Shown here in pieces: positions 9,381 to 25,984 of a stretch of DNA of 48,363 nt (within the stretch, counting starts at the first letter, position 1; every line of letters begins with the position of its first letter). Origin of the DNA: a virus; the IMG/VR virus record IMGVR_UViG_3300020469_000074, positions 1-48,363 of that record, one strand, 5' to 3'. The notes under the pieces were generated by a model. That model did not search any database and was not told the origin of the DNA. It saw only the letters and a list, made by a program, of their open reading frames with translations. A program made the position numbers and the translations under genes.

Positions 9381-9398
9381 CTAAGAAAACTTCTTAGT
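9380..9398. terminator. Hairpin at the convergent gene junction
   Basis: Perfect 8-bp inverted repeat ACTAAGAA / TTCTTAGT with a 3-nt loop, lying on the last base of the rightward arm and the stop codon of the leftward arm. Its place between converging transcription units suggests a bidirectional terminator, but neither side has a proper T-tract, so RNA protection or collision control is also possible. Confidence 0.45.
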
Positions 9399-11991: not shown

Positions 11992-12094
11992 TTTTTTTCC
12001 TTTCCTTTTTATTTTCGGTTGCTGATTTAGTTTTTTTAAACTTTTTCTTTCTAAAGAATCTTGCGGCTCTTTCGTCTTTTCTTGTCGATTCCAT
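11954..12094 (-). CDS. Tiny basic ORF before the reductase
   Basis: 46 codons, start overlapping the previous stop as TAATG, the same coupling used by many neighbours. The product is extremely Lys/Arg-rich (RKDERAARFFRKKKFKK) and its 3' end overlaps the first 38 nt of the reductase gene in another frame. The coupling and its position in an otherwise empty gap support it; the long overlap and biased composition count against it. Confidence 0.45.
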   Translation of the reverse strand: MESTRKDERAARFFRKKKFKKTKSATENKKERKKNERNESVSRIYT

Positions 12095-12384
12095 TATGAC
12101 ACCTTCGATTTCTCCAAAAGTTCCAATATTTTATTCATATACCAAATTGCTTTACGACCATCTTCGACTGTGTAACCTTTAGAAAACAATCGAGTCCCTG
12201 TGTATTTTAATATATTACCGTGACAATAATTAATAACTCCTTCTAGTCCTAAAACATCTTCAATATAATCAATAGTTTCTATCTCTCCTTTATTATAATG
12301 AGGGGGATGATCGACAGCTTCATTTACAGCAGTCCCTACTTTATCCCACCCACCAGTATGAGCATATATAGTTTTAGTTTCCAT
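12094..12384 (-). CDS. DUF3310 protein
   Basis: 96 residues with the DUF3310 pattern: DHPPHYNKGEIETIDYI, then GNILKYTGTR and EDGRKAIWYMNKIL. The family is common in tailed phages, sometimes annotated as a nucleotide-kinase-like protein, without proven function. It overlaps the upstream endonuclease gene by 11 nt and its stop is fused to the next ATG, placing it firmly in the replication operon. Confidence 0.85.
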   Translation of the reverse strand: METKTIYAHTGGWDKVGTAVNEAVDHPPHYNKGEIETIDYIEDVLGLEGVINYCHGNILKYTGTRLFSKGYTVEDGRKAIWYMNKILELLEKSKVS

Positions 12385-12847
12385 CTAGTTCCTCTCTCTT
12401 AGTTAAGTTAATCCAATCGTCAGGCATACTCCATTTACTAAACCATCTAAATCCATTGGCAGTCGCCCATTCACCATGACTTCTTTTAGTTCCGTCTTTT
12501 CTCCTTTTAGCTTGAGGCATCGGAGCAGACGGATTAGCAAATAAAAATACTAATTCTTCTGTATCTTTTAAAATTTTCTTTATCCATATATATTTACTAA
12601 ACTCAGCGTAGTCCCAAAACCTACCTTTAGCTTCTAGCAGAATTGTAATCCCGTCTATTTCTTTTATAAAGTCAGGCTCATAAGTATGCTCTACTACATA
12701 TTTAATTTTATCAGGGTGAAATTTCCACCCGTCTAAAATAGTAGAGTGAAGCTCATATTCAAAAGAAGAGTCATACCCAGTAACTAGATTTTTTTCTACA
12801 GGACGAGGAACTTTATTTTTCCTAGATCCCTTTTTAATTTTTATCAT
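12374..12847 (-). CDS. T7 endonuclease I-like Holliday junction resolvase
   Basis: 157 residues. Matches the Phage_endo_I family: SSFEYELH (Glu30/Glu32), YVVEHTYEPDFI (Asp59) and ILLEAKGRFWD (Glu72, Lys74), with the following KYIWIKK helix. In T7 the equivalent Glu20, Asp55, Glu65 and Lys67 coordinate metal. Such enzymes resolve branched DNA during recombination and packaging and help degrade host DNA. Its ATG overlaps the preceding stop (TAATG at 12849-12845). It works with the polymerase, primase-helicase and exonuclease encoded just upstream. Confidence 0.9.
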   Translation of the reverse strand: MIKIKKGSRKNKVPRPVEKNLVTGYDSSFEYELHSTILDGWKFHPDKIKYVVEHTYEPDFIKEIDGITILLEAKGRFWDYAEFSKYIWIKKILKDTEELVFLFANPSAPMPQAKRRKDGTKRSHGEWATANGFRWFSKWSMPDDWINLTKREELDGN

Positions 12848-13023
12848 TAGTGAATCACCGCCGCTCTTTTTTCTAGTTCAAGTTCTAATAAATCATAGAT
12901 ATCTAATAGCACACCTGATTGAATATCAGATAAATGACCCCCGTTAAAAATATAACTCCCTAAAAGAACTATTACTTCTTCAAGAGTTGCGTCTTCTATA
13001 TCTTGTAAGTTGTCAGATTGCAC
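12847..13023 (-). CDS. Small acidic conserved protein, GTG start
   Basis: 58 residues from GTG at 13023 to a TAA fused with the endonuclease ATG. The product (QDIEDATLEEVIVLLGSYIF, then LLDIYDLLELELEKR) is an acidic, helical protein of a kind I recall in other marine phages. It overlaps the upstream gene by 28 nt. Function unknown; the tight coupling supports it. Confidence 0.65.
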   Translation of the reverse strand: MQSDNLQDIEDATLEEVIVLLGSYIFNGGHLSDIQSGVLLDIYDLLELELEKRAAVIH

Positions 13024-13286
13024 TGTAAAAACTTTAAATTAATATCTTCCAACTTGACCGAAGAGTTTTTAAGAAAGAATTTAATTTTTTGTTTTACCCA
13101 TCTAGGATGAAACACTGAGATATGCATAGTTTCTCCCTTAGTATAGTATTCAAAGGCGGGAGAAAGACTAAGTATATTGGATAAAGTTACTTGATCTTTT
13201 TCTTCTTCTTTTACTAAAGTCTGTATCCATTCAATTAAAATTAATTTAGCTTGTAAGTTAATCGCTTTAACTTTATTCCCTCGCAT
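12996..13286 (-). CDS. Conserved hypothetical protein
   Basis: 96 residues, mixed alpha/beta, with the segments KLILIEWIQTLVKEEE and FHPRWVKQKIKFFLKN. The latter resembles a segment in small proteins of related marine phages (recollection). Its start is fused to the stop of the exonuclease gene (TAATG), so it is co-translated with DNA-processing genes. No catalytic motif seen. Confidence 0.7.
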   Translation of the reverse strand: MRGNKVKAINLQAKLILIEWIQTLVKEEEKDQVTLSNILSLSPAFEYYTKGETMHISVFHPRWVKQKIKFFLKNSSVKLEDINLKFLQCNLTTYKI

Positions 13287-14143
13287 TATAAAACTTCCTC
13301 TACGGTAGGCTCTGCTTCGATATGAGTAAGGTATGTATATCCATTTGAATATTTAAATACTCTTAGCCCTGCTCCATCGTTGGCTGATGAGTGACAATCA
13401 AACTTATAAGAACACCACGAACAAGGCTTTGGAAGTTTCATATTACCTTTCTTTCCTTCTGGTATTGGAGTGTAACATAAATCGGGCTTAGTGTCTAAGT
13501 CTATAGTATCAAGAAGAGTTTGTATTTTGTTTTCAATATTAGGCTTTTCCATATCATCAGGCTGATATAAACAAAGCTCACCTGATTCTTTATTGATTAC
13601 TAAGAACCCGCCGTTATCTGTTTTCTCTGCCGCTTCATATCCTCCAAGCTGACCTAAGTATCCGAAGCCATCGTCTTGAGCCAGAGTCCCGTTTGCAAAT
13701 TTATTAAATGCAAACTTAGATGCAGTCTTTACATCAATAACTTCACCGTCTATTTTACAATCTATATGTCCTGTAATACCTAATACTTCTACTTCTTTTT
13801 GTTCGTCAGTTACTTTATGTCCAGACATACGAACTAGCATTAAAAGTATTTCTTCTAGTATGTGTCCGTATAAAAATTTAATCTGAGTAGCCCCGTCTAT
13901 GCCAGAAGATCTATACTCATCTCTTTTTTGAAACCACAACTGTCTGGCGGGTCTTCCTATATTTGACATTCTAAGAGTAAACTTAGCGTTCCTTTCAGAA
14001 GGTGTCGCCCATGATATAATAGAGTTTTTAATATTGCTTAAAGCTAAGTCTATATCTTCTTCTGTTAGAGGAAGTGGTTTTCCTTCAGATAATTTATTAA
14101 GAGGATCATATATATCTTCTATTAGTGTTGATAGATTACTCAT
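13286..14143 (-). CDS. Cas4/RecB-like PD-(D/E)XK exonuclease
   Basis: 285 residues. Core residues: Glu97/Glu98 in GHILEEILL, Asp128 in TGHIDCKID, Asp137-Val-Lys139 in VIDVKTAS. Cysteines at 223, 241, 244 and 250 (KPCSWCSYKFDC) form the arrangement that binds an iron-sulfur cluster in Cas4 and AddB-type nucleases. The likely role is a 5'-3' or single-strand exonuclease in replication and recombination, replacing T7 gp6. It overlaps the preceding nuclease gene by four bases (ATGA). The iron-sulfur cluster is inferred from spacing only. Confidence 0.87.
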   Translation of the reverse strand: MSNLSTLIEDIYDPLNKLSEGKPLPLTEEDIDLALSNIKNSIISWATPSERNAKFTLRMSNIGRPARQLWFQKRDEYRSSGIDGATQIKFLYGHILEEILLMLVRMSGHKVTDEQKEVEVLGITGHIDCKIDGEVIDVKTASKFAFNKFANGTLAQDDGFGYLGQLGGYEAAEKTDNGGFLVINKESGELCLYQPDDMEKPNIENKIQTLLDTIDLDTKPDLCYTPIPEGKKGNMKLPKPCSWCSYKFDCHSSANDGAGLRVFKYSNGYTYLTHIEAEPTVEEVL

Positions 14144-14487
14144 AAATCTTTTCCTTTCGTATGTTTAATCCAACGAAGCGTTCTTAATTCAGAATCAAAA
14201 GCCAATACTACTACGTTTTTTGCCACCTGCTCTTGTGTCCTGCCCACCATAGTATTTGTTCCACTAGTTTTAACATCAATTAATATAGTCTCGTTATTTT
14301 TCATTCCTATTAAATCTATATCTCCCGAACAGCCGCAGTTTTTAAATACTTCGTAGCCTTCATCCCATAGCCAAGTAACAGCATAGTATTCTGCTAAGTC
14401 TCCTTTCCTACTCGTACACATACTAGAATATTCATCTTCAAAAATAGGCTCTAGCTCTTCTTGCATTTCTTCTGATAAAGATTTCAT
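14140..14487 (-). CDS. Hjc-like PD-(D/E)XK nuclease
   Basis: 115 residues. KGDLAEYYAVTWL (Glu33), GDIDLIG (Asp58) and ILIDVKT (Asp71, Lys73) give a compact nuclease core like archaeal Holliday-junction resolvases and related phage enzymes. The ATG at 14487 overlaps the polymerase stop as TAATG; an upstream ATG at 14505 inside the polymerase gene is less likely. It is a second candidate resolvase beside the endonuclease I-like gene at 12374, or a structure-specific nuclease acting with the polymerase. Confidence 0.8.
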   Translation of the reverse strand: MKSLSEEMQEELEPIFEDEYSSMCTSRKGDLAEYYAVTWLWDEGYEVFKNCGCSGDIDLIGMKNNETILIDVKTSGTNTMVGRTQEQVAKNVVVLAFDSELRTLRWIKHTKGKDL

Positions 14488-16250
14488 TAGTGGGTTTCTG
14501 CCCAATTATTACCTATTTTATATTCACCATCTAACGGACAGTTTAATTTAAAATTACAAGTAACTTCTCTAAGAGCCTGTACTCCCAACTGTCCTACAAG
14601 ATCGGCCTGCTCTTCTTTAACTTCTAACTGCCATTCATCGTGTACATTAGCTACAAACTTAGCGTCAAGATTCTTTTGTTTTATTTTATTGTTTAAAAGA
14701 ACTAGTCCTTCCTTCATTATAATACTACCGCAACCCTGCAATAAAGTATTTAAACTTCTGTGTTCACTGCGTACTTCTAGCTTTCGACCATCTATTGCTT
14801 TAATGAATCCCTGTCTAGCTTCTCTCGATACTCTATCTCTAAAAGCCTTAAATGATGGGAGATTATTGTCGAAGCGTTTCCTAAGTTTTGTTCCATCTTT
14901 TTTATTTCCTCCAACCACTTGTCCAACTTTTTCATCTCCTGCTCCGTACAAGAGGGCATAAATGAAAGTTTTTGCCTGATTTCTTGATTCAAGTCCTGCA
15001 AGTTTTTGATTAGCGGTGTGTATATCTCCGTCGGTGACTTCATGTATATACTCCTTGTTATTCATGTAGTGAGCTAAACATCTTAACTCTAATTGAGATG
15101 CGTCAATGCCAACTAATTTATATCCTTTAGGAACAGTCCAACATTCTCTACACTCTTTCCCGTATGGTGAAGTAAGGCTAGGTATCTGAGCCATATTTGG
15201 TTTTGAATGAGTCATCCTTGATGTTACGGCCCCATTAGGATTTACATACCCTCTGACTCTATCGTCATTTTCTACAACTTCTATCCAAGATTTTACTTGA
15301 GCTATTCTTTTTTGAAGCATTAAATATTCAGATATTTTTAAAGCTTCTGGTATGTGTTTAGCTTCAGATAAAGTTTTCTCATCGACAACAGGCTGTCCTG
15401 TAGGCGTAAACTTTTTAGGTTTCCATCCTAAACCTACTAGGTACTCCCCTATTTGCTGTCTTGAGTTTATATTAAAGTCTTTATATGTGGTTCTCGTTAT
15501 AGGTGTAAATTTATTTAATAAAAATTGCTCGTATTCTTTATCAGTTAAGTGCGCCCCAGTACCGTCTTGTTTTTTTCCTATTTTAGATAGTAATCCCTTA
15601 GCAGTAAACTTAGGGGTTATAACTACCTCAGTTTTTTTAGGCGTGAAAGATTTAGATATATCTTCTTCAAGTAAAGAAACTTTATCGTTTAAAGATGATA
15701 GTAGAATAATTGCACTCTGCATGTCTAACATAAACCCATTGTCTATCTGAGTATTAATTATTTTAGCGACTGAATGCTCTAATACTACAGATTTAGAAGT
15801 GAATCCTCGGCTCTCAACTTTTAAAGCTTTATATACTTTTAAATTTAATAGGACATCTCGAATACAGTACACCATCATCTCAGGATTATAAGAGTCCCAC
15901 GCTTCAATGTTTTTGCCGTAGTCTCCTTTATGATATTTAAGTCGGTGTCCCCAACTTTCTAATCCGTGACCGCCCTCTCTAGAAGGATTAAATAAACGAG
16001 AAAGAACTAATGTATCTATAATTTTTTTATCAGATAAATCAACGCCTAATAAATTTTTAATTACTGGTATGTCATAGCATAAAATATTATGCCCAATTAA
16101 CTTAGTTGCTTTTTGTAAAAGTTTTATTCCTTCTGTAATTGTAAGAGGATCGAACCTATGAAGTTCCTCTGTGTCTACATTTAATACTACAATACAGTGT
16201 ACCATAGTAGGTTTAATACCGTCTGTTTCTATATCAAAAAGTAAGTTCAA
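14487..16250 (-). CDS. DNA polymerase, family A (T7-like)
   Basis: 587 residues. The N-terminal 3'-5' proofreading exonuclease has FDIETDG (Asp6, Glu8), a GHNILCYD segment and YCIRDVLLN. Polymerase motif A is GIDASQLELR (about 380), motif B RNQAKTFIYALLYGAG (about 421-437) and motif C NVHDEWQ (about 538). The residue matching E. coli Pol I Phe762 is Tyr, as in T7, a feature linked in the literature to virulent phages. It is shorter than T7 gp5 (704), so the thioredoxin-binding loop may be reduced. It starts with a four-base overlap (ATGA) on the primase-helicase stop, so the two replisome subunits are translated together. Confidence 0.96.
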   Translation of the reverse strand: MNLLFDIETDGIKPTMVHCIVVLNVDTEELHRFDPLTITEGIKLLQKATKLIGHNILCYDIPVIKNLLGVDLSDKKIIDTLVLSRLFNPSREGGHGLESWGHRLKYHKGDYGKNIEAWDSYNPEMMVYCIRDVLLNLKVYKALKVESRGFTSKSVVLEHSVAKIINTQIDNGFMLDMQSAIILLSSLNDKVSLLEEDISKSFTPKKTEVVITPKFTAKGLLSKIGKKQDGTGAHLTDKEYEQFLLNKFTPITRTTYKDFNINSRQQIGEYLVGLGWKPKKFTPTGQPVVDEKTLSEAKHIPEALKISEYLMLQKRIAQVKSWIEVVENDDRVRGYVNPNGAVTSRMTHSKPNMAQIPSLTSPYGKECRECWTVPKGYKLVGIDASQLELRCLAHYMNNKEYIHEVTDGDIHTANQKLAGLESRNQAKTFIYALLYGAGDEKVGQVVGGNKKDGTKLRKRFDNNLPSFKAFRDRVSREARQGFIKAIDGRKLEVRSEHRSLNTLLQGCGSIIMKEGLVLLNNKIKQKNLDAKFVANVHDEWQLEVKEEQADLVGQLGVQALREVTCNFKLNCPLDGEYKIGNNWAETH

Positions 16251-17914
16251 AGTATTTCTCCACAGTCGTAATCATCTACTTCATTGAGTCTACCAGTTTG
16301 ACTATCATATTTCAAGTATCCCGCTATCCCTGTCTCACCACTAAAACGATTCTTTAGGATACGAACAATAGTCATGTTCCTTTCTTCGGGATCTTCTGCC
16401 TGACGATTACCTTCTAATGCTATAGCAATATTACTTAACTGAGCAATTGAATTAGATCCCCTAAGATCCCGAAGTCTTACTCTACCTCCCTCTTCTGGCG
16501 AAGAATCGGATTTACTTAAATGACTAATAGCTATAAGAGCAACGCCTGTTTCTTCTGTTATTGATCTAAGGTTATGCATAACAGAATCAATAGCTTTTCT
16601 CTCGTCGTTCCCAACGCCCATAGACATGCCTACTAAAATACTAATATGATCTAATACTATTACTCCGCAATCTTCTGCTTTAGCTAGATATCTAATTTTA
16701 TTTAATACGCTTTCCATATCAAACTTGCCTACGTGCCGCAGGAATAAAAATCTACCGTTGCTTAGTATTTCATCGTAAGCTTTTTGCTTTTCCTCTATTG
16801 AGATAGAATCAGCAAGCTTAGGTTTCCTATGTATGTTATGTGGGTTTTTTAAAATATGAGACATCATCTGTTGTTTAGTAGGAAGATGTAAAAGTTTATT
16901 AGCCGATAGCGACATAAGACCTAACGCTGAAGTAGCCACACTTTCCTCTAAAGACAGAACGCCTATCTTCTCATTAGTAAATTTAAATATTTCTTCTTGC
17001 AACTGTTTGACTACAGTAGACTTTCCTACACCTGTGCCTGCCGTAACAGTTATAAGTTCTGCTTTTCTCATTCCATATAACATTAAATTTAAACAGTCCC
17101 ACGGATAGCTACAGAAAGGCATTTCTAGTTCTGCCATTACCTCGCTATGTAATTGATTACTAGATACTATACCATCAGGCACATACTTTTCTGCAAGCCA
17201 CCAATTAGAAACAAATAAAGCTTGCTGATGTTTCTTTAAATAATCGCAGGCATCTTTATATTCTGGGGGATGTTTAAATATTTTAGCTTTCCCGCCAAAC
17301 AATTCCGCAACTTCAAGAGCCGCCTTAGATCCTGCACTATCTCCATCAAAGCATATAATTATATTTTCAAAACTATTTATCCATTCAAAAGATTCTTTAC
17401 AATCTTTAATTGCAGACTGCGCTCCGCTTTTAATAGACACGGAAGGATATTTACTGCCTGTTATTTGATAGCCTGCCATAGCATCGCACTCGCCCTCATA
17501 AAGAGTTAGATACCTGCCGCCTTTAGAAAATAAATTTTGCCCGAATAGCTCTGAGCTTTTTGCATCTCCTGACCAAGAAAAAGTTTTATCTTTTACTTGC
17601 CTAATCTTAATCCCGTTTGAATAAGGATAGAAATGTTTAGTTATTATGCCATCTACCTCTGATACCTGAACACCATAGAATGCACAAGTATCTTGAGTAA
17701 TCGCCCTATCTGTAATAGGTTTAAAACTTTTGTTGCTTCCCTCTTTTTTTTTACTATACTGAGAAAAGTCTTTTACTTTATCATCCTCCTTTATATCTCC
17801 TACATTTTGAAAGAACCCGCCGCAACTAAAACATTTGCCACTGCCATCGGCGTTGAGTGCGAGAGCATCACTGCTCCCACACTCTAGGCAGGGCTGATGA
17901 TATTTTACAAACAT
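16247..17914 (-). CDS. Primase-helicase, T7 gp4-like
   Basis: 555 residues, close to T7 gp4 (566). A zinc ribbon (Cys9, Cys12, Cys28, Cys31) for primer-site recognition is followed by TOPRIM motifs (LYEGECDAMAG, then IICFDGDSAGSKA) and a RecA-like DnaB-type helicase with Walker A AGTGVGKST (about 300) and Walker B GVIVLDHIS (about 418). It unwinds the fork and makes primers for the downstream-encoded polymerase. The full primase and helicase halves are intact. Confidence 0.95.
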   Translation of the reverse strand: MFVKYHQPCLECGSSDALALNADGSGKCFSCGGFFQNVGDIKEDDKVKDFSQYSKKKEGSNKSFKPITDRAITQDTCAFYGVQVSEVDGIITKHFYPYSNGIKIRQVKDKTFSWSGDAKSSELFGQNLFSKGGRYLTLYEGECDAMAGYQITGSKYPSVSIKSGAQSAIKDCKESFEWINSFENIIICFDGDSAGSKAALEVAELFGGKAKIFKHPPEYKDACDYLKKHQQALFVSNWWLAEKYVPDGIVSSNQLHSEVMAELEMPFCSYPWDCLNLMLYGMRKAELITVTAGTGVGKSTVVKQLQEEIFKFTNEKIGVLSLEESVATSALGLMSLSANKLLHLPTKQQMMSHILKNPHNIHRKPKLADSISIEEKQKAYDEILSNGRFLFLRHVGKFDMESVLNKIRYLAKAEDCGVIVLDHISILVGMSMGVGNDERKAIDSVMHNLRSITEETGVALIAISHLSKSDSSPEEGGRVRLRDLRGSNSIAQLSNIAIALEGNRQAEDPEERNMTIVRILKNRFSGETGIAGYLKYDSQTGRLNEVDDYDCGEIL

Positions 17915-17925
17915 CTTTTAACCCT

Positions 17926-18168
17926 TTATCTATTACCGAGTGAATCCTCTTCTTCTATAGTAATTACTGCATCTTCATAATCTGTTAAAGACTCGTTCAT
18001 AGAATCATATAACTTCATTACTGCCGCAGTAGCGACTATACCTTTAACTTTAGTTTGTTGCATATCTTGCTCTGCTAAATGCAGTGCGTCAAAAATATTT
18101 TGTTTCTCTAGTGGTAATAAAGAAACATCATATCGAACTCCTTCGTGATTATAGATTTTATTTGCCAT
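17926..18168 (-). CDS. Small helical protein, DUF6447-like
   Basis: 80 residues: an N-terminal NHEGVRYDVSLLP segment and a long helix with AEQDMQQTKVKGIVATAAVMKLY. The layout recalls the small DUF6447 proteins of phages, but this is a weak match from memory. Its start is fused to the stop of the ssDNA-binding gene (TAATG), placing it between that gene and the primase-helicase. Confidence 0.65.
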   Translation of the reverse strand: MANKIYNHEGVRYDVSLLPLEKQNIFDALHLAEQDMQQTKVKGIVATAAVMKLYDSMNESLTDYEDAVITIEEEDSLGNR

Positions 18169-18596
18169 TAAAGCTCATCCTCCAAAGACGGCTCTGCTGT
18201 AAGCTCTGAACCATCTGCCATAGATCCTGATTCTACTAGCTCTATTACTTGCAAAGCTTGAAGATCTAATCCTTTAAAAGTACCATATGAATTAGTAGTC
18301 TCCCAAGGTCGGTACTGAACTTTTACTTTTGAGCCGTTGCCTACGGTGATGTCCAAAGGATTCTTGTATTTGTCCATCAGTCTTGGAGTTTCATTAGGTG
18401 TTCCATCGGCTCTATTAACTTTACGTTTAAAAATTAAACACTCCTGATCGTCAATGACTTTAGTTGAATATCCTTTATCTTTAAAAGAAGCAACGGTATC
18501 ACTATCTGTTGCTAAGTTTACTTGATACACAGGTGTATACTTAGTGTTAGGTGTAGTGATGCTTGCCCAATAAGCGGTTCCTGATAATACTGGCAT
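18168..18596 (-). CDS. Single-stranded DNA-binding protein
   Basis: 142 residues from the ATG at 18596, which follows ACAGGAGAAAACT; an in-frame upstream start at 18662 lies within the promoter and is rejected. A beta-rich body (YTPVYQVNLATDSD, IFKRKV, SKVKVQYRPWETT) ends in an acidic tail (AEPSLEDEL), the hallmark of phage T7 gp2.5-type and bacterial SSB proteins that contact the replisome. It protects ssDNA at the fork. A consensus-like promoter at 18630-18658 gives it its own strong expression. Confidence 0.8.
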   Translation of the reverse strand: MPVLSGTAYWASITTPNTKYTPVYQVNLATDSDTVASFKDKGYSTKVIDDQECLIFKRKVNRADGTPNETPRLMDKYKNPLDITVGNGSKVKVQYRPWETTNSYGTFKGLDLQALQVIELVESGSMADGSELTAEPSLEDEL

Positions 18597-18622
18597 AGTT
18601 TTCTCCTGTTGGTTTGGTTTGT

Positions 18623-18658
18623 GGTATAAATGGTAACACAGGAATGCCGCCCTGTCAA
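18623..18658 (-). promoter_or_regulatory. Sigma70-like promoter of the ssDNA-binding gene
   Basis: Leftward TTGACA (18658-18653), 17-bp spacer, TACCAT (18635-18630; 4 of 6 consensus). The predicted start near 18623 leaves a 27-nt leader with a good ribosome site. This fits the high demand for ssDNA-binding protein. Confidence 0.6.
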
Positions 18659-18668
18659 CCATGAATTT

Positions 18669-18854
18669 TTAAAACTGAATCCATCCTCGCGTTAATAATA
18701 TATTAAGACTAATTAGTATACAAGTTCCTATATTAATTATAGCTATAATTGATCTTATTATAGATACAACATTATACTCAAATGAATTATTAGTAGTTAA
18801 CTCATTTAATGATAAAGACCAATAAAACCAAATTTTTTTTAAGGATTTTAACAT
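18669..18854 (-). CDS. Small membrane protein
   Basis: 61 residues. The N-terminal half is polar (KKIWFYWSLSLNELTTNN) and residues about 30-56 form a hydrophobic segment (IIAIINIGTCILISLNILL), giving a single membrane helix. It stands alone between two small genes of the early arm. The ribosome site is weak. Function unknown. Confidence 0.55.
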   Translation of the reverse strand: MLKSLKKIWFYWSLSLNELTTNNSFEYNVVSIIRSIIAIINIGTCILISLNILLTRGWIQF

Positions 18855-18881
18855 ATTTATACTTTATAGTCTAGTAATTTA

Positions 18882-19127
18882 TTAAGGCGTAGGATCAAAA
18901 CGAAAAGTTTCTACAGGGTGCTTGTCGTTATACGCTTTTATCATATAATCTAAAAGCATAACTAACTCTTTATTAAAACTTTTATGATCTGATACCTCGC
19001 CTTTATTATATGTTTCTATATATTCTAGAGAAGTTTTAATAATATAATTAGTATATTCGCTATTCTTGTATACATGCACGACATCTAGGTCATCTGTTTC
19101 AAGACTATAGTACTCTTCTCTATTCAT
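18882..19127 (-). CDS. Small acidic hypothetical protein
   Basis: 81 residues, acidic and helical (YYSLETDDLDVVHVY, NKELVMLLDYMIKAYND). AAAGGAAAATTATAT precedes the ATG. No family recognised. Early-arm position suggests a host-takeover or regulatory role, by inference only. Confidence 0.65.
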   Translation of the reverse strand: MNREEYYSLETDDLDVVHVYKNSEYTNYIIKTSLEYIETYNKGEVSDHKSFNKELVMLLDYMIKAYNDKHPVETFRFDPTP

Positions 19128-19140
19128 ATATAATTTTCCT

Positions 19141-19221
19141 TTATGCTAATTGTATAATTATTTCAATAAATACACAGATAACTGCGGTATACACAGCTAA
19201 CTCTGTCCACTCTTCTATCAT
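19141..19221 (-). CDS. Single-helix membrane peptide (26 aa)
   Basis: 26 residues: MIEEWTELAVYTAVICVFIE then a short hydrophobic end, almost one membrane-spanning helix. The ribosome site AAGGAGAAATAAATTTA before the ATG is excellent for so short a frame, which is the main argument that it is real. It lies between two small early genes, where membrane peptides of takeover type are common. Confidence 0.5.
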   Translation of the reverse strand: MIEEWTELAVYTAVICVFIEIIIQLA

Positions 19222-19266
19222 TAAATTTATTTCTCCTTAGCGTTATGAGTACCCTTTAAAGCTATA

Positions 19267-19302
19267 TAAATACATAGCGGCGTTATAACCGCTATGTATT
19301 TA
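19267..19302. terminator. 14-bp intergenic hairpin
   Basis: Perfect inverted repeat of 14 bp per arm (ATACATAGCGG core) with an 8-nt loop, directly after the stop of the gene at 19313-19513. Neither side has a clear T-tract, so it may be a terminator, an RNA-processing site or an mRNA 3'-end stabiliser. Confidence 0.45.
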
Positions 19303-19312
19303 ATTTATAAAG

Positions 19313-19513
19313 CTAGTCAGTGTCCATGCCTTCAATAACTATAGACCCATATGTTACGACAACGAAAGGAATAAGAACCACTAATCCGTTTAAAGTTCCA
19401 AAACAATTTAAACTTCCAACCCATATAGGCCGAGCATCACAAGACTCAATATCTAAACCTATGCCGTTACGAAAATTAAAAGTTAAATGATAGCCTAAAA
19501 AATAGAAAGTCAT
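19313..19513 (-). CDS. Small protein with hydrophobic C-terminal half
   Basis: 66 residues with a hydrophobic stretch LNGLVVLIPFVVVTYGSIVI (about 41-60) and two cysteines before it. Its ATG overlaps the stop of the DUF932 gene by four bases (ATGA), which supports translation. Function unknown; probably membrane-associated. Confidence 0.55.
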   Translation of the reverse strand: MTFYFLGYHLTFNFRNGIGLDIESCDARPIWVGSLNCFGTLNGLVVLIPFVVVTYGSIVIEGMDTD

Positions 19514-20421
19514 GCCGCTTTCCTGAAGTATTCTGCTACTGTATTTTGACGAGAGGCCAATATAGATGGGCGCTTAGATTCGCTACTAGTCGGTGAGTGA
19601 GTAGACCAATCAGTTAATGCATTGTAAACAGCCCACATATTAGAACCTAAACGCGGCTTATAAGTATGATTCCACTTGTCATATATATAATTTAAATTAT
19701 TGTTTTTCCTCGGCATATTTTCTAAGGCACTAGTAGGATTAGAAGATAATTTTAATTCCTCTAATGCTGTATTAGATTTAAGAGCCTCTGCGAAAGTAGC
19801 GAATGCTTCGTTATCTGTAACCTTAGTTTTATGCCACACCGACCACTGCTCCCTTTCAGTATGGAATAATTCTAAGGCTCTATTAATAACACGACTACCC
19901 GCATCTACATTTAAATTATGGGTGTGCCTAGATTTATATAAGCACACTTCACCGCTAGTGAATACTTGTAAGTTAGTACACGCTGACTGGATTGCCGCAC
20001 AGCTTATTAAAAAAGGCCATGTACTATCAAATGAAGTGTGCGCTAACAAACTTAAAGTAGCAGAGTCACCGTCGGGAGTTTTATATTTATATTCTGGTAA
20101 ATTATAATTAACAAATGTCCTTTTACCGTCGTGACTGGTTCTAATTGTCTCTTCTATATTTTTTAAATTAAAGTCAGAACGTAATAAAATATTCCTACAT
20201 GCGTCAATCATTTTCCGTGGAGCTATTGGTTGATACCGATCACCGTGAACACCTAACTCCCTGCCTGTATCAGTGCGGTATATAGAACTTTTACTACTAT
20301 AAAGTGTTCCATTAGGCGTGTCATACATTAGTGGAGCGGTAGCTATATCAAAACCCGCTTCTCCATATCCGCTATCAAAAAAACTTGATTGATCTTTAAA
20401 CATAGTTGTAATGTTATTCAT
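19510..20421 (-). CDS. DUF932 phage/plasmid-type protein
   Basis: 303 residues with the DUF932 pattern: YRTDTGRELGVHGDRYQPI, LLAHTSFDSTWPF, then NMWAVYNALTDWSTH and RQNTVAEYF at the end. The family is frequent in phages and plasmids and has no proven biochemical role; links to recombination or defence evasion are only guesses. It sits between a methyltransferase cluster and small membrane proteins in the early arm. Confidence 0.82.
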   Translation of the reverse strand: MNNITTMFKDQSSFFDSGYGEAGFDIATAPLMYDTPNGTLYSSKSSIYRTDTGRELGVHGDRYQPIAPRKMIDACRNILLRSDFNLKNIEETIRTSHDGKRTFVNYNLPEYKYKTPDGDSATLSLLAHTSFDSTWPFLISCAAIQSACTNLQVFTSGEVCLYKSRHTHNLNVDAGSRVINRALELFHTEREQWSVWHKTKVTDNEAFATFAEALKSNTALEELKLSSNPTSALENMPRKNNNLNYIYDKWNHTYKPRLGSNMWAVYNALTDWSTHSPTSSESKRPSILASRQNTVAEYFRKAA

Positions 20422-20573
20422 GTGTTGTCTCCGTCAGTGTATTTAGTTTGATGTTTATTATAAACACCTGTTTTTTTCGCTTGCTTTTTCCTGTCTAAAA
20501 ATGTTTTTGCTTTATTAAATTTACCACTAAATTTAGCTACTAAATTTCTCCTATGAGTTGATATAGTTTTCAT
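20418..20573 (-). CDS. Small basic hypothetical protein
   Basis: 51 residues from the ATG at 20573, which follows GGGAGTGAAATTA; a longer reading from 20603 has no ribosome site. Lys/Arg-rich (HRRNLVAKFSGKFNKAKTF) and probably nucleic-acid binding. It overlaps the end of the methyltransferase gene by 23 nt and the DUF932 start by four bases. Function unknown. Confidence 0.6.
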   Translation of the reverse strand: MKTISTHRRNLVAKFSGKFNKAKTFLDRKKQAKKTGVYNKHQTKYTDGDNT

Positions 20574-21258
20574 TAATTTCACTCCCAATATAATATCTGT
20601 CATTCCTAATAGCTACTTTACCAGTAGTACCTGTACCCATAAAAGGATCATATATTATATCATGTTTATGAGTAAAATTTAAAATTATTTTTTCAATCAA
20701 AGCTTCGGGGGTAGTGGCCCTATGTTTTTTATTAACACTTCGCTGTCTGTTTATCTGCCAGATATCCGATAAAGTACCCCTATCAAAATTAGCTTGCGGG
20801 AACTGCCTACTAATAGAATTATTTTTATCGAATACTAATATTAATTCCGACTGTTTATTTAAAACAGCAGGGGCCATCGATGGTTGAGCATGGCCTTTAT
20901 CCCATATAATTATGTCTTTTAATTCCTGATGGTAGTCACCTATTAATTTAAACCACGGGCGTTTAGATCCCGTCACTATTTGTATCTGATAAAAAACTAA
21001 TCCGCTTGCTACTCTTAGGCATTCATTTAATACTTCACCGTGAAAATCATAGTATTTTTCGATAGGTAAATTATCATTAAATCCCTCGTATTTTGTACTA
21101 AATTCATTCGTATCTATACTGCGACTACAGTATTTACCATACCTTATTCGTAAATTCATATTATAAGGCGGCGATGTAATTACATGATTAATTGAATCAT
21201 CTTTCATGCCCTTTAAAGTCTGTATGCATGGCTCATTATAAGTTATATTTAATTTCAT
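20551..21258 (-). CDS. Beta-class DNA methyltransferase
   Basis: 235 residues. Catalytic motif IV TSPPYN (28-33) precedes the SAM-binding motif I IIYDPFMGTGTTG (about 200-213), the motif order of beta-class amino-methyltransferases. SPPY is common in N4-cytosine enzymes of this class but also occurs in N6-adenine enzymes, so base and site cannot be assigned. No restriction endonuclease gene is adjacent, so it is an orphan enzyme, probably protecting phage DNA or marking it for regulation or packaging. The start has only a weak ribosome site (GGAGCTGTATTAAA). Confidence 0.9.
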   Translation of the reverse strand: MKLNITYNEPCIQTLKGMKDDSINHVITSPPYNMNLRIRYGKYCSRSIDTNEFSTKYEGFNDNLPIEKYYDFHGEVLNECLRVASGLVFYQIQIVTGSKRPWFKLIGDYHQELKDIIIWDKGHAQPSMAPAVLNKQSELILVFDKNNSISRQFPQANFDRGTLSDIWQINRQRSVNKKHRATTPEALIEKIILNFTHKHDIIYDPFMGTGTTGKVAIRNDRYYIGSEINENYINS

Positions 21259-21271
21259 TTTAATACAGCTC

Positions 21272-21415
21272 CTATGTTTTAGATGACCCGTAAAAATGTT
21301 TTATATCAGACTTAAAAAATGTTAGATAATATTTAATCCAACACCTACTACATACATAGGTGTTAGATTCTACTATATCCGCTCTTCGCCTTTTACATCT
21401 ATTGCATTGTTTCAT
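21272..21415 (-). CDS. 47-residue zinc-finger protein
   Basis: 47 residues with two CxxC knuckles (QCNRCKRR and VCSRCWIKYY) spaced as a treble-clef or zinc-ribbon finger, followed by a short helical tail. Its ATG overlaps the preceding stop (ATGA at 21415-21412). Probably binds DNA or RNA or a host protein; early-arm position suggests regulation. The metal site is inferred from the four cysteines. Confidence 0.65.
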   Translation of the reverse strand: MKQCNRCKRRRADIVESNTYVCSRCWIKYYLTFFKSDIKHFYGSSKT

Positions 21416-22038
21416 ACTGAATCTTCTAGATATCTGATATGAGCCTCGCTCACTTCAAAACCACTACGCCAAGGTGATTCATCTTCTACTGCCCTAGCAT
21501 TGCACCATGTATCCCACAATCTTTCGGTTCCTAATTCGTGACATTTTTCTATATATGTTTTTACTTTTCGGCGTATAGCTTCTTGTCCTTTTGGCCCCGC
21601 TTTTTTGTTAGCGGTAGCAATATTGGGATCTAATCCGTAATAGCGTAAATTATGTACATCTAAACACCCCACTAGATTAAAAACTAATTGACATAAAAAA
21701 CCACCTTTAGCGATGCCAACCGACGGAATCCGCATAAACATTCGCATCAATGCTATAGCTTTTTCATCATCTGTCTTATTAGTAGAGTGCATAACTGCCA
21801 AACACTGAGCGAACATAAGATACTTTTTACTCTGTATATATTCGTAGCAATTCCGTTTTGTTCGCCAGTTTAAAAATCTACTAGCAGTACCATTAAGCAT
21901 GACATCATTTAATTGAATACCTACATTATGCCAACGCTGTTGGATAGATAGGACTACCATTAACACCACCATTGCAAACTGGTCGGGATTCTTTAAAGCG
22001 AATTCACTACATTTTTGGGCGTGATCTTTATACATCAT
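21412..22038 (-). CDS. Helix-hairpin-helix protein, DNA glycosylase-like
   Basis: 208 residues from ATG at 22038, after GAGGACAAT. Mostly helical; the segment RIPSVGIAKGGFLCQLV followed by GCLDVHNLRYYGLDP resembles the helix-hairpin-helix and Asp-bearing loop of HhH-type DNA glycosylases. That would suggest base excision or modified-base handling, but key catalytic residues cannot be confirmed by eye. It lies next to the methyltransferase. A longer reading starting at 22092 runs through the preceding hairpin and is rejected. Confidence 0.6.
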   Translation of the reverse strand: MMYKDHAQKCSEFALKNPDQFAMVVLMVVLSIQQRWHNVGIQLNDVMLNGTASRFLNWRTKRNCYEYIQSKKYLMFAQCLAVMHSTNKTDDEKAIALMRMFMRIPSVGIAKGGFLCQLVFNLVGCLDVHNLRYYGLDPNIATANKKAGPKGQEAIRRKVKTYIEKCHELGTERLWDTWCNARAVEDESPWRSGFEVSEAHIRYLEDSV

Positions 22039-22066
22039 ATTGTCCTCGTTGGTTGGGTTGCTATAT

Positions 22067-22120
22067 CGTCCTACGTTTCTTAAACACTTCACAATGTTCA
22101 GTGTTTAAGAAACTAGGACG
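22067..22120. repeat. Long inverted repeat, 21-bp stem with one bulge
   Basis: CGTCCTACGTTTCTTAAACACT (split here only by position) at 22067-22088 pairs with 22100-22120 except for one bulged C; the loop is 11 nt. It lies between the genes at 22128 and 22038 with no U-tract downstream, so an RNase III-type processing hairpin in the leftward transcript is more likely than a simple terminator. Core of each arm: TTTCTTAAACACT / AGTGTTTAAGAAA. Confidence 0.75.
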
Positions 22121-22127
22121 TTTTGGT

Positions 22128-22325
22128 TTAGGGTCGATAGTTAAAGTGTTCAATGGGATCGAAACAATCGACACAAACATAATGCCTACTATTTCGAGTG
22201 CATAGCTCACAATCAGTATCTTGATAATAGTTAATATTATCTAGATAGTTTACTTCTGAATGCAGTGAGTCAGTTAATGGTAAATTATTATTAATACCAG
22301 TTAATACATTATTAATTAAATCCAT
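22128..22325 (-). CDS. Small zinc-ribbon protein
   Basis: 65 residues from the ATG at 22325, preceded by AAAGGATATAAAC; an in-frame TTG further upstream is not needed. The C-terminal half holds CELC and CVDC, a two-knuckle zinc-binding pattern. Probably a small early regulator. It is followed by the 21-bp hairpin. Confidence 0.6.
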   Translation of the reverse strand: MDLINNVLTGINNNLPLTDSLHSEVNYLDNINYYQDTDCELCTRNSRHYVCVDCFDPIEHFNYRP

Positions 22326-22338
22326 GTTTATATCCTTT

Positions 22339-22512
22339 TTAATAGCCAATAAATCTCAACACCTGTTGAGCGTCGTAGGTTTTTAGGACTCCTAATTCAT
22401 TATAAAAATCATTAATAGTTAGCGAGTCATCTAAGCCATGATTGTTTAATTCCTTTATAGCTCTATCGTGAGTTATAACTATTTCCTCTGCGCTTTCGTA
22501 ATAACTATCCAT
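22339..22512 (-). CDS. Small conserved acidic protein
   Basis: 57 residues (MDSYYESAEEIVITHDRAI, then YDAQQVLRFIGY), helical and acidic, of a kind I recall in related marine phages. The start overlaps the preceding stop by eight bases, and it overlaps the region upstream of the next gene. Function unknown. Confidence 0.6.
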   Translation of the reverse strand: MDSYYESAEEIVITHDRAIKELNNHGLDDSLTINDFYNELGVLKTYDAQQVLRFIGY

Positions 22513-22726
22513 TTGCAAATAATTCCATTTGTCGATCCGTGTATTCTATACCCTCAAATTCTTGCCCTTTAACTTCGCTTTGAAATAAAGTTATTTCATT
22601 TTTAACTTTATCATATTGTCCTGTATCCCTATTATAATTAAGTGATTCTATTTTAATGTCGATCCACCTTTTATCGACTCGCGGATCAATAGTAAGATTT
22701 GTAACTTTATGTATATTAATGTCCAT
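22505..22726 (-). CDS. Small hypothetical protein
   Basis: 73 residues, beta-rich (IHKVTNLTIDPRVDKRW, VKNEITLFQSEVKG) with a helical C-terminus (YTDRQMELFANG). CGGAGATAGTT precedes the ATG. It is the second gene of the early operon. No family recognised. Confidence 0.65.
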   Translation of the reverse strand: MDINIHKVTNLTIDPRVDKRWIDIKIESLNYNRDTGQYDKVKNEITLFQSEVKGQEFEGIEYTDRQMELFANG

Positions 22727-22741
22727 AACTATCTCCGTTAT

Positions 22742-22757
22742 GCCCTCCGAAGAGGGC
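22742..22757. terminator. UUCG-tetraloop hairpin
   Basis: On the leftward RNA the sequence reads GCCCUC-UUCG-GAGGGC: a perfect 6-bp GC-rich stem closed by the very stable C(UUCG)G loop, placed between the first two early genes. No U-tract follows, so attenuation or mRNA stabilisation is as likely as termination. Confidence 0.55.
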
Positions 22758-22768
22758 GGTTAGTTTAA

Positions 22769-23173
22769 TTATTTTGCCAGAGCTTTTAAAAGCTCAGATT
22801 GCGCTGTAAGCAAACTACTCAATGTAGTTTTAATAGTATCCATATCGGCTTCTAGCGTGTCAAGTCTTTTTGTGGCGGCGTTGACTTTTAATTTGGGCGC
22901 GGCTTTTACTTTGGTCTTTTTGGGTTGGAAGTAGTAAAGGCTAGACTTTAAAGCATCGTCAATTGTGCAGATCTTTAGCATTTCAATATAATCGTCAAAA
23001 TTCCAACGGGGATCTTTGGATCTGTTGTCATCAGAGATGACTTTGAGCATTTGCTTATAAACTGTATATACAGCGCCTTTATCCAATTTTAATTGGACTG
23101 CTAGCATTTGAGTTAGCTGATAAGCTACGGCAGGGATGGTTGTCGGCTTCTGAGTGTTAGCTGTTGTTGGCAT
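22769..23173 (-). CDS. First early gene, hypothetical regulator
   Basis: 134 residues from the ATG at 23173, preceded by GGAGAACGACG; a longer frame upstream is rejected because it runs into the 15-bp inverted repeat. An N-terminal Thr-rich segment is followed by a helical domain (VAYQLTQMLAVQLKLDKGAV) and a Lys-rich hinge, and the C-terminus (about 105-134) is a coiled-coil-like helix. First gene of the leftward arm, so a regulatory or host-takeover protein is likely from position only. Confidence 0.7.
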   Translation of the reverse strand: MPTTANTQKPTTIPAVAYQLTQMLAVQLKLDKGAVYTVYKQMLKVISDDNRSKDPRWNFDDYIEMLKICTIDDALKSSLYYFQPKKTKVKAAPKLKVNAATKRLDTLEADMDTIKTTLSSLLTAQSELLKALAK

Positions 23174-23205
23174 CGTCGTTCTCCATATCTGTTTGAGGAA
23201 TATAT

Positions 23206-23247
23206 ATTTTAAAAAACCTTTCACAATAGTTCAAGGTTTTTTAAAAT
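23206..23247. terminator. AT-rich 15-bp hairpin before the first early gene
   Basis: Arms of 15 bp containing AAAAAACCTT and AAGGTTTTTT around a 12-nt loop. The A-tract/T-tract arrangement is that of a bidirectional intrinsic terminator, yet it lies between the leftward promoter and the first leftward gene, so it may act as an attenuator. A TATAAT on the leftward strand (23251-23246) overlaps its outer arm but lacks a good -35. Confidence 0.5.
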
Positions 23248-23424: not shown

Positions 23425-23464
23425 AAAGCTTCATATCTGCGTATACCTGCCTAGCCTATGTAGG

Positions 23465-23473
23465 GCGGGCAGG
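23465..23473 (+). repeat. Direct repeat GCGGGCAGG, copy 2
   Basis: Second exact copy of the 9-mer at 23416-23424. It also forms the right arm of the imperfect stem CCTGCC / GGCAGG spanning 23446-23473 and is followed by a C-rich tract. Confidence 0.5.
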
Positions 23474-23565
23474 CGTCCACCCCACCCCCCACCTATATAT
23501 ACTAAATCCTATACATTTTTACCAGAATCTAGTGTAAAGCAGATAGGGCCGCAGATATTAAGCAT

Positions 23566-23590
23566 AAAAAAACGCCCCAATTAGGACGTT
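23566..23590 (-). terminator. Intrinsic terminator of the leftward leader
   Basis: On the leftward strand AACGTCC...GGGCGTT forms a 7-bp stem (one G-U pair) followed at once by seven T residues, a classic intrinsic terminator. It lies about 65 nt after the predicted leftward start, so it should end or attenuate that transcript before the early genes. Confidence 0.65.
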
Positions 23591-23630
23591 ATAAAGGCTA
23601 TATAAGGGGATGTGCAACCCCGCCATAGCT
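23566..23630 (-). ncRNA. Predicted ~65-nt terminated leader RNA
   Basis: Would begin at the predicted start 23630 of the leftward consensus promoter and end at the terminator. Its 5' half can fold (GCUAU...AUAGC outside GGGG...CCCC, 23597-23629). It could be an attenuated leader of the early operon or a free small RNA. Prediction only. Confidence 0.45.
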
Positions 23631-23665
23631 ATATACAGTATACACTTGAAATTTAAGTTTGTCAA
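23630..23665 (-). promoter_or_regulatory. Leftward early promoter
   Basis: TTGACA (23665-23660), exactly 17 bp, TATACT (23642-23637): a consensus -35, optimal spacing and a near-consensus -10. The predicted start is near 23630. It is the mirror image of the rightward promoter about 23672/23673, and its -35 lies in one arm of the inverted repeat TTTGTCAAG/CTTGACAAA. Confidence 0.75.
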
Positions 23666-23687
23666 GAATTAAATATAACTTGACAAA
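23658..23687. promoter_or_regulatory. Operator-like inverted repeat over both -35 boxes
   Basis: TTTGTCAAG (23658-23666) and CTTGACAAA (23679-23687) form a perfect 9-bp inverted repeat with 12-bp spacing (21 bp centre to centre, two helix turns). Each arm contains one of the two divergent -35 boxes, so a dimeric protein bound here would block both promoters. Confidence 0.55.
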
Positions 23688-23715
23688 ACTGTAAATCAGG
23701 TATATACTGTAATAA
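23680..23715 (+). promoter_or_regulatory. Rightward promoter giving a leaderless mRNA
   Basis: TTGACA (23680-23685), 17 bp, TATACT (23703-23708). With the usual six-base discriminator the transcript starts at 23715, the A of the terminase small-subunit ATG. There is no ribosome site upstream. ACTGTAA is repeated at 23688 and 23706, 18 bp apart. Confidence 0.75.
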
Positions 23716-24113
23716 TGGCTACTAAAACATTAACAATAAAACAAAAATCTTTCTTGGATCATTTAATTGACTGCAATGGAGATACAAGACTTGCAGGAGA
23801 ACGTGCAGGTTATTCTCCTACAAGCGTTTCTAATGTAGTAAAATCATTAAAATCTGAGATATTAGAAATGGCAGAAACGATATTAGCTCAGTCGGCACCT
23901 AAAGCCGCATTTAAAATAGTTAGTATAATGGATAGCGATACACCTATACCGCAAGCTAATGTTAGAATGCAGGCGGCACAAACTATTTTAGATCGTGTAG
24001 GTTTAGGTAAAACAGATAAACTAGATCTAAGTGTTAATGCTCAAAGTGGCGGTTTATTTATTCTTCCTGCAAAGCAAGAAACAATAATAGAAGCTGAGTA
24101 TGCGGAGAACTAG
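23715..24113 (+). CDS. terS: Terminase small subunit
   Basis: 132 residues. The N-terminus (TIKQKSFLDHLIDCNGDTR, AGERAGYSPTSVSNVVKSL) is a helix-turn-helix typical of small terminases, followed by a helical oligomerisation region and a short C-terminal tail. It recognises the packaging site and hands DNA to the large subunit encoded downstream. The ATG has no ribosome site and coincides with the predicted transcription start, so it is probably translated from a leaderless mRNA, or from read-through without a standard initiation signal. First gene of the late arm. Confidence 0.85.
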   Translation: MATKTLTIKQKSFLDHLIDCNGDTRLAGERAGYSPTSVSNVVKSLKSEILEMAETILAQSAPKAAFKIVSIMDSDTPIPQANVRMQAAQTILDRVGLGKTDKLDLSVNAQSGGLFILPAKQETIIEAEYAEN

Positions 24114-24327
24114 TAGCACAATTCCTTTTGGTTATAAACTAGATGAAGAAAACCCTTCTTATCTTTTAGAAATACCTGAAGAAAAAGAAGCTTTAGATAA
24201 AATATCATCTATGATTAAAAATAAAGCTCTTAGTCTAAGAGAAGGAAGCTCATGGCTACAATATGAAACAGGCCGCTATATTTCTCATATGGGACTAAAA
24301 AAAATAGTAGATAAACATGCAAAATGA
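24100..24327 (+). CDS. Small conserved protein between terminase genes
   Basis: 75 residues overlapping both terminase genes by 14 and 11 nt. PFGYKLDEENPSYLLEIPEE and then SLREGSSWLQYETGRYISHMGLKKI resemble the C-terminal part of serine-recombinase-type proteins, with a helix-turn-helix-like end. It is far too short to be a recombinase. Genes like this accompany terminases in some marine phages (recollection). A DNA-binding helper of packaging is a plausible but unproven role. Confidence 0.7.
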   Translation: MRRTSSTIPFGYKLDEENPSYLLEIPEEKEALDKISSMIKNKALSLREGSSWLQYETGRYISHMGLKKIVDKHAK

Positions 24328-25984
24328 TTGGGAGATTAATCCACATAATTACTGTAGAGATGAGAAAGGAAGTTTTATTCTTAAACTCGACGGGACTCCA
24401 AAAAGAAAATCAGGAAGAGCTAAAGGATCGAAAGGTAAAGGATATAATTACCACTCTTCTACAAAAGCTGAAATGGCAAATAAAAGAACTCTACTAAATA
24501 ATGAAAAAAAATTAAAAGCCGCCAGACAAAAAGTATTTAAATATGAAAAAACATTAGATGCTTTATCTAAAATAAATGATAAAAAGAAATCTAAGATAAT
24601 TGAAGATACTTCTATTAAGGCAGTTAGTCCTAAAGTACAAAAAGAAATAGAAGAAAATGTAATATTTAAAGCTAACGAAGGGCCGCAAGAAGATTTCCTT
24701 GCATCGGGCGAAACAGACGTTCTGTACGGAGGTTCGGCAGGGGGTGGTAAAAGCTACGCTATGATCGTAGACCCTCTTAGATACGCACACAGGCCCGCTC
24801 ATAGGGCTTTAATACTTAGGCGGTCAATGCCTGAACTTAGAGAACTAATAGATAAAAGTAGAGAGCTATATCCAAAAGCATTTAAAGGGGCAAAGTTTAG
24901 AGAAGTAGAAAAAGTCTGGAACTTTCCTAGCGGTGCAAAGATAGAGTTTGGATTCCTTGAAAGAGATGCAGATGTTTATCGCTATCAAGGACAAGCATAT
25001 AGTTGGATTGGTTTCGATGAAATAACTCACTTGCCTACAGAATATAGTTGGAACTATTTGGCTTCGCGGTTACGAACTACAGATCCAGAAATTGTTCCTT
25101 ATATGCGATGTACAGCAAATCCAGGCGGTGTTGGAGCTAGTTGGGTAAAGAAAAGATATATTTCTCCTTCTCCACCTAATGAAGCATTTAAAGGGCAGGA
25201 CGGATTAACAAGGAAGTTTATCCCTGCCCGACTACAAGATAATCCTTTTTTAGCTATGGATGGTCGGTATGAACAAATGTTAATGTCTTTACCGCCAACT
25301 CAAAGAAGACAATTATTAGAAGGAAATTGGGATGTAGCTGAAGGAGCCGCATTCACAGAATTTAATTTAGAAATGCATGTAATTCCTCCTTTTGATATTC
25401 CTATACATTGGGAAAGAATAAAAGGTATTGACTATGGTTATGCTTCTGAAAGTGCTTGTATTTGGGGAGCCTTAGACAATAGCGACGGAACTTTAATAAT
25501 ATATAGAGAACTATACGCTAAAAATTTGTTAGGTACAGAACTAGCTCAAATGTTAACTAATATGGAACTAGAAGATCCTTATTCTATTGCAGGAGTTTTA
25601 GATACAGCTTGTTGGAATAGAACAGGAACAACTGGCCCAACAGTCGGAGAAACTTTAGTAAAAGCAGGTCATAAACTTAGAAGGGCAGATAAAAATAGAA
25701 TTCAAGGTAAAATACAAATACATGAGTATTTAAAGTCGCGTCCAAACGGAAGACCTAAAATTCAAATTTTTAATACTTGTCCTAATTTAATTAGAGAGTT
25801 ACAAAGCATACCTCTAAGTAAAAATAATCCTGAAGATGTAGATACACATGCAGACGATCATGCGTATGATGCTTTAAGGTACTTGATTATGTCAAGACCT
25901 AGAATTATAGACCCGCTAAGTAGAATGCGGCAACTTCAATCAGAAACATTTTTTCAACCGTTTGATTCAACTTTTGGATATTAA
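24317..25984 (+). CDS. terL: Terminase large subunit
   Basis: 555 residues. A Lys-rich N-terminal extension of about 110 residues precedes the ATPase: Walker A GGSAGGGKSY (about 138-147) and Walker B WIGFDEITHL. The C-terminal RNase H-like nuclease has GIDYGYASES (about 370), VLDTACW and DDHAYDALRYL. It cuts concatemeric DNA and drives it into the prohead through the portal. It overlaps the previous gene by 11 nt. The extended basic N-terminus may bind DNA or the small subunit. Confidence 0.95.
   Translation: MQNDWEINPHNYCRDEKGSFILKLDGTPKRKSGRAKGSKGKGYNYHSSTKAEMANKRTLLNNEKKLKAARQKVFKYEKTLDALSKINDKKKSKIIEDTSIKAVSPKVQKEIEENVIFKANEGPQEDFLASGETDVLYGGSAGGGKSYAMIVDPLRYAHRPAHRALILRRSMPELRELIDKSRELYPKAFKGAKFREVEKVWNFPSGAKIEFGFLERDADVYRYQGQAYSWIGFDEITHLPTEYSWNYLASRLRTTDPEIVPYMRCTANPGGVGASWVKKRYISPSPPNEAFKGQDGLTRKFIPARLQDNPFLAMDGRYEQMLMSLPPTQRRQLLEGNWDVAEGAAFTEFNLEMHVIPPFDIPIHWERIKGIDYGYASESACIWGALDNSDGTLIIYRELYAKNLLGTELAQMLTNMELEDPYSIAGVLDTACWNRTGTTGPTVGETLVKAGHKLRRADKNRIQGKIQIHEYLKSRPNGRPKIQIFNTCPNLIRELQSIPLSKNNPEDVDTHADDHAYDALRYLIMSRPRIIDPLSRMRQLQSETFFQPFDSTFGY

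Follow-up and report, generated by a model that had tools for sequence, protein, structure and literature searches.

Promoters and genes at the divergence point

In the window, the whole stretch of 48,363 nucleotides analysed here, two gene blocks diverge from a single region, whose features are collected in Table 1. The leftward block is the replication arm, in which large ORFs from 9381 to 23224 encode ribonucleotide reductase, endonuclease, exonuclease, DNA polymerase, primase/helicase and single-stranded DNA-binding protein, and PHROG families could be assigned to the replication genes. The rightward block is the terminase and virion arm, with ORFs that run from 23715 across the closure of the genome to 9380 and encode terminase, portal, head, tail and lysis functions. 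The closure follows from the ends of the window: its first and last 291 bases (1-291 and 48073-48363) are identical, which indicates a closed genome of about 48,072 bp. The repeated stretch lies within a late gene and is either a circular-assembly overlap or a true terminal repeat.

Table 1. Coordinates of features around the divergence point of the window
Feature	Position	Strand	Remarks
First leftward gene	22769-23173	-	N-terminal helices, basic linker, long C-terminal helix; candidate DNA-binding protein
Conserved element (83-position profile)	23463-23544	-	TATATATA beside G tract; found in 82/85 loci by profile search
Terminator-like hairpin	23571-23590	-	Run of seven T; about 40-60 nt into the leftward leader
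Hairpin at 5' end of predicted leftward transcript	23597-23629	-	GCTAT...GGGG...CCCC...ATAGC
Leftward promoter, TTGACA-17-TATACT	23637-23665	-	-35 at 23665-23660, -10 at 23642-23637
10 bp ahead of leftward -10	23643-23652	-	Within-genome likeness to rightward counterpart
Outer inverted repeat	23634-23711		TACAGTATA (23634-23642) / TATACTGTA (23703-23711); arms perfect, at both -10 regions
Inner inverted repeat	23658-23687		TTTGTCAAG (23658-23666) / CTTGACAAA (23679-23687); arms perfect, 12 bp apart
Rightward promoter, TTGACA-17-TATACT	23680-23708	+	-35 at 23680-23685, -10 at 23703-23708
10 bp ahead of rightward -10	23693-23702	+	6/10 match to leftward counterpart in the window
terS (terminase small subunit)	23715-24113	+	PHROG 2538, E 1.2e-5; ATG 6 nt past -10, predicted leaderless mRNA
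Small ORF	24100-24327	+	14-nt overlap with terS end; no Shine-Dalgarno 4-mer
terL (terminase large subunit)	24317-25984	+	Overlaps the preceding small ORF

The sequence places the window among podoviruses akin to the HTVC103P/HMO-2011-type marine phages. Its packaging genes are related to those of Pelagibacter phage HTVC115P (TerL 66% and TerS 54% identical), and TerS relatives are present in 20 phage records. A search of genome contigs for a host gave four matches (L229, L230, L231 and L232), in bins of unrelated phyla, and we therefore infer no host; the partial match, L232, has neither the promoters nor the 83-bp element. In Rfam, nothing matched the window. The initial annotation took the phage to lack an RNA polymerase of its own, and this agrees with a search using a profile that covers single-subunit polymerases only: neither the window nor any of 11 other records yielded a T7-type RNA polymerase, and T7 itself, as positive control, was detected. 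The pelagiphage Skadi, too, is reported to be without a viral RNA polymerase, and four sigma70 promoters are predicted in it (PMC10504331). It belongs to a different phage group, and the parts of that paper covered here describe no back-to-back pair (PMC10504331).

The twin promoters lie back to back on the two strands about an axis at 23672/23673, with the -35 boxes in one perfect inverted repeat and the -10 regions in a second, just as the initial annotation had it. Within these 78 bp, symmetric offsets agree at 12/12 hexamer positions and at 15/27 of the remaining positions. Both promoters have sequences of the sigma70 type, matching TTGACA/TATAAT at 11/12 positions with a 17-bp spacer. Transcription is predicted to start at about 23715 (+), the first base of the terS start codon, and at about 23630 (-).

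Conservation of the pair and the start of terS

Relatives were collected in two IMG/VR scans for TerS, which gave 14 loci and then the best 80 of 580 confirmed ones; since the second scan was limited in this way, the sample is weighted toward closer relatives. Three cultured pelagiphages and the window were added and one duplicate contig was removed; 97 loci were then examined, and the 93 that have enough upstream DNA fall into 61 groups at 90% identity. A promoter was counted as present if each hexamer had at least five of six matches. Both promoters are kept in 89 of the 93 loci and in 57 of the 61 groups, and TTGACA is retained in 113 of the 114 promoters of these 57 groups. The pair in the window very likely represents real divergent host-type promoters at the boundary of the two transcription arms. 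In three of the genomes (G002, G004 and G005) the pair is the sole match to TTGACA-16/18-TATA(A/C)T. The cultured pelagiphages HTVC115P and HTVC103P share with the window the divergent early and late blocks, the twin promoters and a TerS ATG 6-7 nt past the -10; they differ from it in TerL (62-66% identical), in having a 16-bp spacer in one promoter and in having more consensus sites elsewhere.

Four groups were scored as lacking the pair. HTVC033P (L003) has its consensus rightward promoter displaced upstream by about 155 bp, and in L216 a rightward promoter is present by eye, with an ATG 8 nt past the -10, ahead of a longer TerS. The other two, L140 and L146, have no consensus pair, though they are 72-74% identical in TerS and are among the closer relatives. 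L146 has a row of long AT-rich hairpins (2260-2740) between the first leftward gene and terS. In the Roseobacter relatives CRP-207, CRP-2, CRP-738 and CRP-9, and in HMO-2011, terS lies inside a gene block of one direction. The genomes of CRP-207, CRP-738 and CRP-9 have no such consensus sites, CRP-2 being the exception among the four Roseobacter records. When we scanned the IMG/VR collection for the -35 arms alone, at least 87 among the 120 sites listed had a -10 with at least five of six matches on both sides; a TerS relative is found within 300 bp of 55 of these paired sites but not of the other 32, so that the arrangement also occurs outside this phage group. Six loci with no adjacent TerS relative (L028, L029, L062, L085, L113 and L114) have a symmetric TTGACA-17-TATATT on both strands, likewise with an arm distance of 12 or 13 bp.

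The position of the terS start codon relative to the rightward promoter falls into two classes. An in-frame TerS ATG lies 6-8 nt past the -10 in 47 of the 57 groups, 9-10 nt past it in 3 and 29-32 nt past it in 7, with nothing between 10 and 29 nt. The public annotation of HTVC115P makes an identical choice of terS ATG. Three held-out loci with longer TerS N-termini (L229, L230 and L231, the last with TTGTCA as its -35) have the ATG 7 nt past the -10. In 50 of the 57 groups the ATG is therefore so close to the -10 (6-10 nt) that a late mRNA with little or no leader is to be expected, and in the window the spacing leaves no upstream room for a Shine-Dalgarno site. None was found within the predicted terS transcript of the window, where a Shine-Dalgarno 4-mer accompanies 29 of the 48 listed genes, terS, the next ORF and terL not being among them. 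The ORF after terS overlaps terS, often by 14 nt when the longest frame is taken, in all 57 groups with enough downstream DNA. It has a Shine-Dalgarno 4-mer in 21 of 57 groups, so relatives lack such sites only in part. From the spacing between the -10 and the ATG, then, the terS mRNA is predicted to be leaderless. The cI mRNA of lambda is a leaderless phage mRNA, and the predicted terS mRNA resembles it in having the start codon at the predicted transcription start and no Shine-Dalgarno site. It differs in that the gene predicted to be leaderless here, in 50 of 57 groups, is terS, the first of the late genes.

The leftward leader and the first leftward gene

The predicted leftward transcript opens with a hairpin, and this position of the hairpin recurs in relatives. 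In 97% of 58 leaders the first 22 nt fold with an MFE no higher than -1.5, compared with 10-41% at later offsets. Shuffles of the identical bases reach this value in 56% (mean energies -5.3 for real and -2.1 for shuffled leaders), so the effect is partly one of base composition. A stem of at least 4 bp begins at nt 1-5 in 54 of the 58 leaders, and its arm sequences are many and different. The terminator-like hairpin is found in only four of the 58 leaders, from scattered lineages (the window, L001, L204 and L209). Its T run begins at nt 59-81, and in each of the four TTTTTTTATG follows the hairpin. This hairpin may give rise to a short RNA or act as an attenuator.

Further into the leader lies the 83-bp element, which recurs in nearly all of the loci searched (Table 1). 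Searched for in 16 whole records, it gave a strong single match in each of eight IMG/VR genomes and none in five others. In the cultured phages the match is weak in HTVC103P (E 5e-4, in noncoding DNA upstream of terS) and in HMO-2011 (E 0.007, in noncoding DNA at the divergence), and in HTVC115P the profile gave E 0.2, away from the region. L146, which is without the promoters, keeps the element, which there starts 47 nt before terS and so indicates that the element is not dependent on them. In 54 loci the two halves of its tract are G-G in 40, C-C in 7, G-C in 6 and mixed in 1. As the tract is C or half-C in 13 of the 54, a purely RNA-level role of the tract is unlikely; the swapping of G for C half by half may instead mean that the element is read as double-stranded DNA, on either strand. 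A replication origin or a packaging site is possible.

The first leftward gene belongs to a fast-evolving family, present in 29 of the 44 groups with at least 1500 bp of leftward DNA. In the structure model of its product (mean pLDDT 75.5) the basic linker is of low confidence, and the model has no PDB or viral structure match at E 0.001 or better. The linker of the relatives in L146, L201, L205 and L211 contains GRPKGS, which we take to be AT-hook-like. A Pfam search with five relatives gave nothing above the curated cut-off, AT_hook being at E 0.92 in L211. The protein is at most a candidate regulator.

Control of the two arms

The reading that we consider probable is that this is the phage's main divergent pair and consists of two independent consensus promoters for the host RNA polymerase, with a rightward mRNA that is leaderless at terS. 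The host polymerase with its housekeeping sigma factor would start both the leftward replication arm and the rightward terminase/virion arm. The mirror image would be a by-product of two consensus promoters that face apart, its exact spacing not being under selection. The rightward transcript would begin on the terS ATG or no more than a few bases from it. Translation of terS would then be leaderless, and that of the ORF overlapping it, and probably also of terL, would occur by coupling. This could hold the terminase below the level of later genes, Shine-Dalgarno sites being present at many of these. The hairpin that opens the leftward transcript may stabilise it, and the long leader would carry the 83-bp element. 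Counting against this explanation are the two relatives that lack the pair (L140 and L146), the 7 of 57 groups with the ATG at 29-32 nt, the shifted promoter of HTVC033P and the one-direction arrangement in the Roseobacter phages and HMO-2011.

Divergent promoter regions are known from phages that use the host RNA polymerase, for example PRM/PR of lambda and A2/A3 of phi29. There, as here, two host-type promoters serve opposite arms from one control region. Here, however, there are no flanking repressor genes, the sites are near-perfect matches to the consensus, relatives do not preserve the mirror spacing and the rightward product is terminase. At somewhat less than even confidence, we propose more broadly that the region serves a large group of marine podoviruses, in which no polymerase of their own has been detected, as a compact module for starts in both directions. 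It would combine twin promoters, a leaderless terminase mRNA, a hairpin-capped leader and an 83-bp element of a new kind, a replication origin or packaging site that would be read as double-stranded DNA indifferent to strand. The portions of the open-licence literature covered here (PMC8528129, PMC10504331, PMC11288001, PMC9004378, PMC9437464) contain no description of the pair or of a leaderless terS. To judge from these sources, little work seems to have been done on gene ordering in marine hosts by phages that lack an RNA polymerase of their own. For one large group the region offers a conserved and directly testable proposal, consisting of two promoters, a predicted leaderless late mRNA with terminase as its first cistron and a noncoding element. 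Since cultured relatives exist in HTVC115P and HTVC103P, mapping of 5' ends should be feasible.

Two equally strong promoters alone give no order of early and late expression. One way in which such an order may be set is through a shared factor, a phage protein or a modified host polymerase, that acts on each promoter via the bases before the -10. The 10 bp ahead of the left and right -10 boxes agree at 5.68 of 10 positions within the same genome, compared with 3.89 of 10 in shuffled pairings, and none of 5000 shuffles of the pairings was as high. The excess persists in mutually dissimilar subsets (mean z 5.1 with about 16 loci; mean z 2.8 and mean p 0.018 with about 9 loci). When all non-hexamer positions are taken, own-genome likeness is 13.1 against 11.2 of 26. 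This likeness makes a factor acting on both promoters possible, and two further observations favour it: the left/right likeness does not fall with the gap between the promoters (Spearman +0.30), and the protein family of the first leftward gene is basic and coiled-coil-like. Against it, the six bases ahead of the -35 have no own-genome excess (2.35 against 2.74), no palindrome or common operator was found, no binding protein is known and an equal pattern would arise if the host polymerase preferred certain bases in each lineage. The correlation with distance (+0.30) also makes repair between the arms an unlikely cause of the likeness. We regard a shared factor as possible but rather unlikely. 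It may be compatible with the two promoters being otherwise independent, and a phage or host factor that reads lineage-specific bases before both -10 boxes would be the best lead on the timing of the late arm.

A stricter form of common control, put forward in the initial annotation, is that a single protein, bound symmetrically to the mirrored arms, switches the two promoters together through this fixed geometry. The arms are indeed perfect in the window, the symmetry goes beyond what the hexamers require (the 15/27 other offsets) and the nearest relatives (L004-L006) have the same -35/-35 gap of 14 bp as the window. Conservation of the symmetry in related genomes was to be the check on this idea, and there it is lost: across the 57 groups the gap ranges from 6 to 104 bp, 41 bp being commonest, and in L004 the outer arm is already imperfect. 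What is conserved, therefore, is neither the exact mirror nor the reading of both arms by one protein in a set geometry. In many relatives the two promoters share their -35 flanks (a C ahead of the box, A-rich sequence behind it), which makes promoter context likelier than one operator. As a conserved mechanism the symmetric protein is thus largely refuted, and we consider it very unlikely; what stands of the proposal is its weaker form, a factor acting on each promoter separately.

A lysogeny switch of the lambda type, in which the divergent promoters would be under a repressor and an antirepressor, is more improbable still. Divergent promoters with symmetric arms would suit such a switch, as would a leaderless start like that of lambda cI, and HMO-2011 is annotated with an integrase; but the neighbours of the pair are terS and the replication block, not a repressor pair, and no integrase or repressor family was found among 36 window proteins scanned with PHROGs. 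Chance can be dismissed as the origin of the two consensus-like sites, for although the genome is AT-rich and promoter-like sites of lower stringency are common (31 found against 25.9 expected in 7 kb), back-to-back pairs with at least 11/12 matches did not occur in 60 random genomes of the window's dinucleotide make-up (about 0.003 expected per genome), and nearly all groups of relatives retain both promoters.

Sites with at least 11/12 matches number four in the 48,072-bp genome: the twin promoters, one at 4420 (+), which reads TTTACA-16-TATAAT, and one at 41562 (-). The last is a perfect 12/12 TTGACA-17-TATAAT (41534-41562), which lies antisense within an AT-rich late gene (41023-42054), where the surrounding GC content is 26%.
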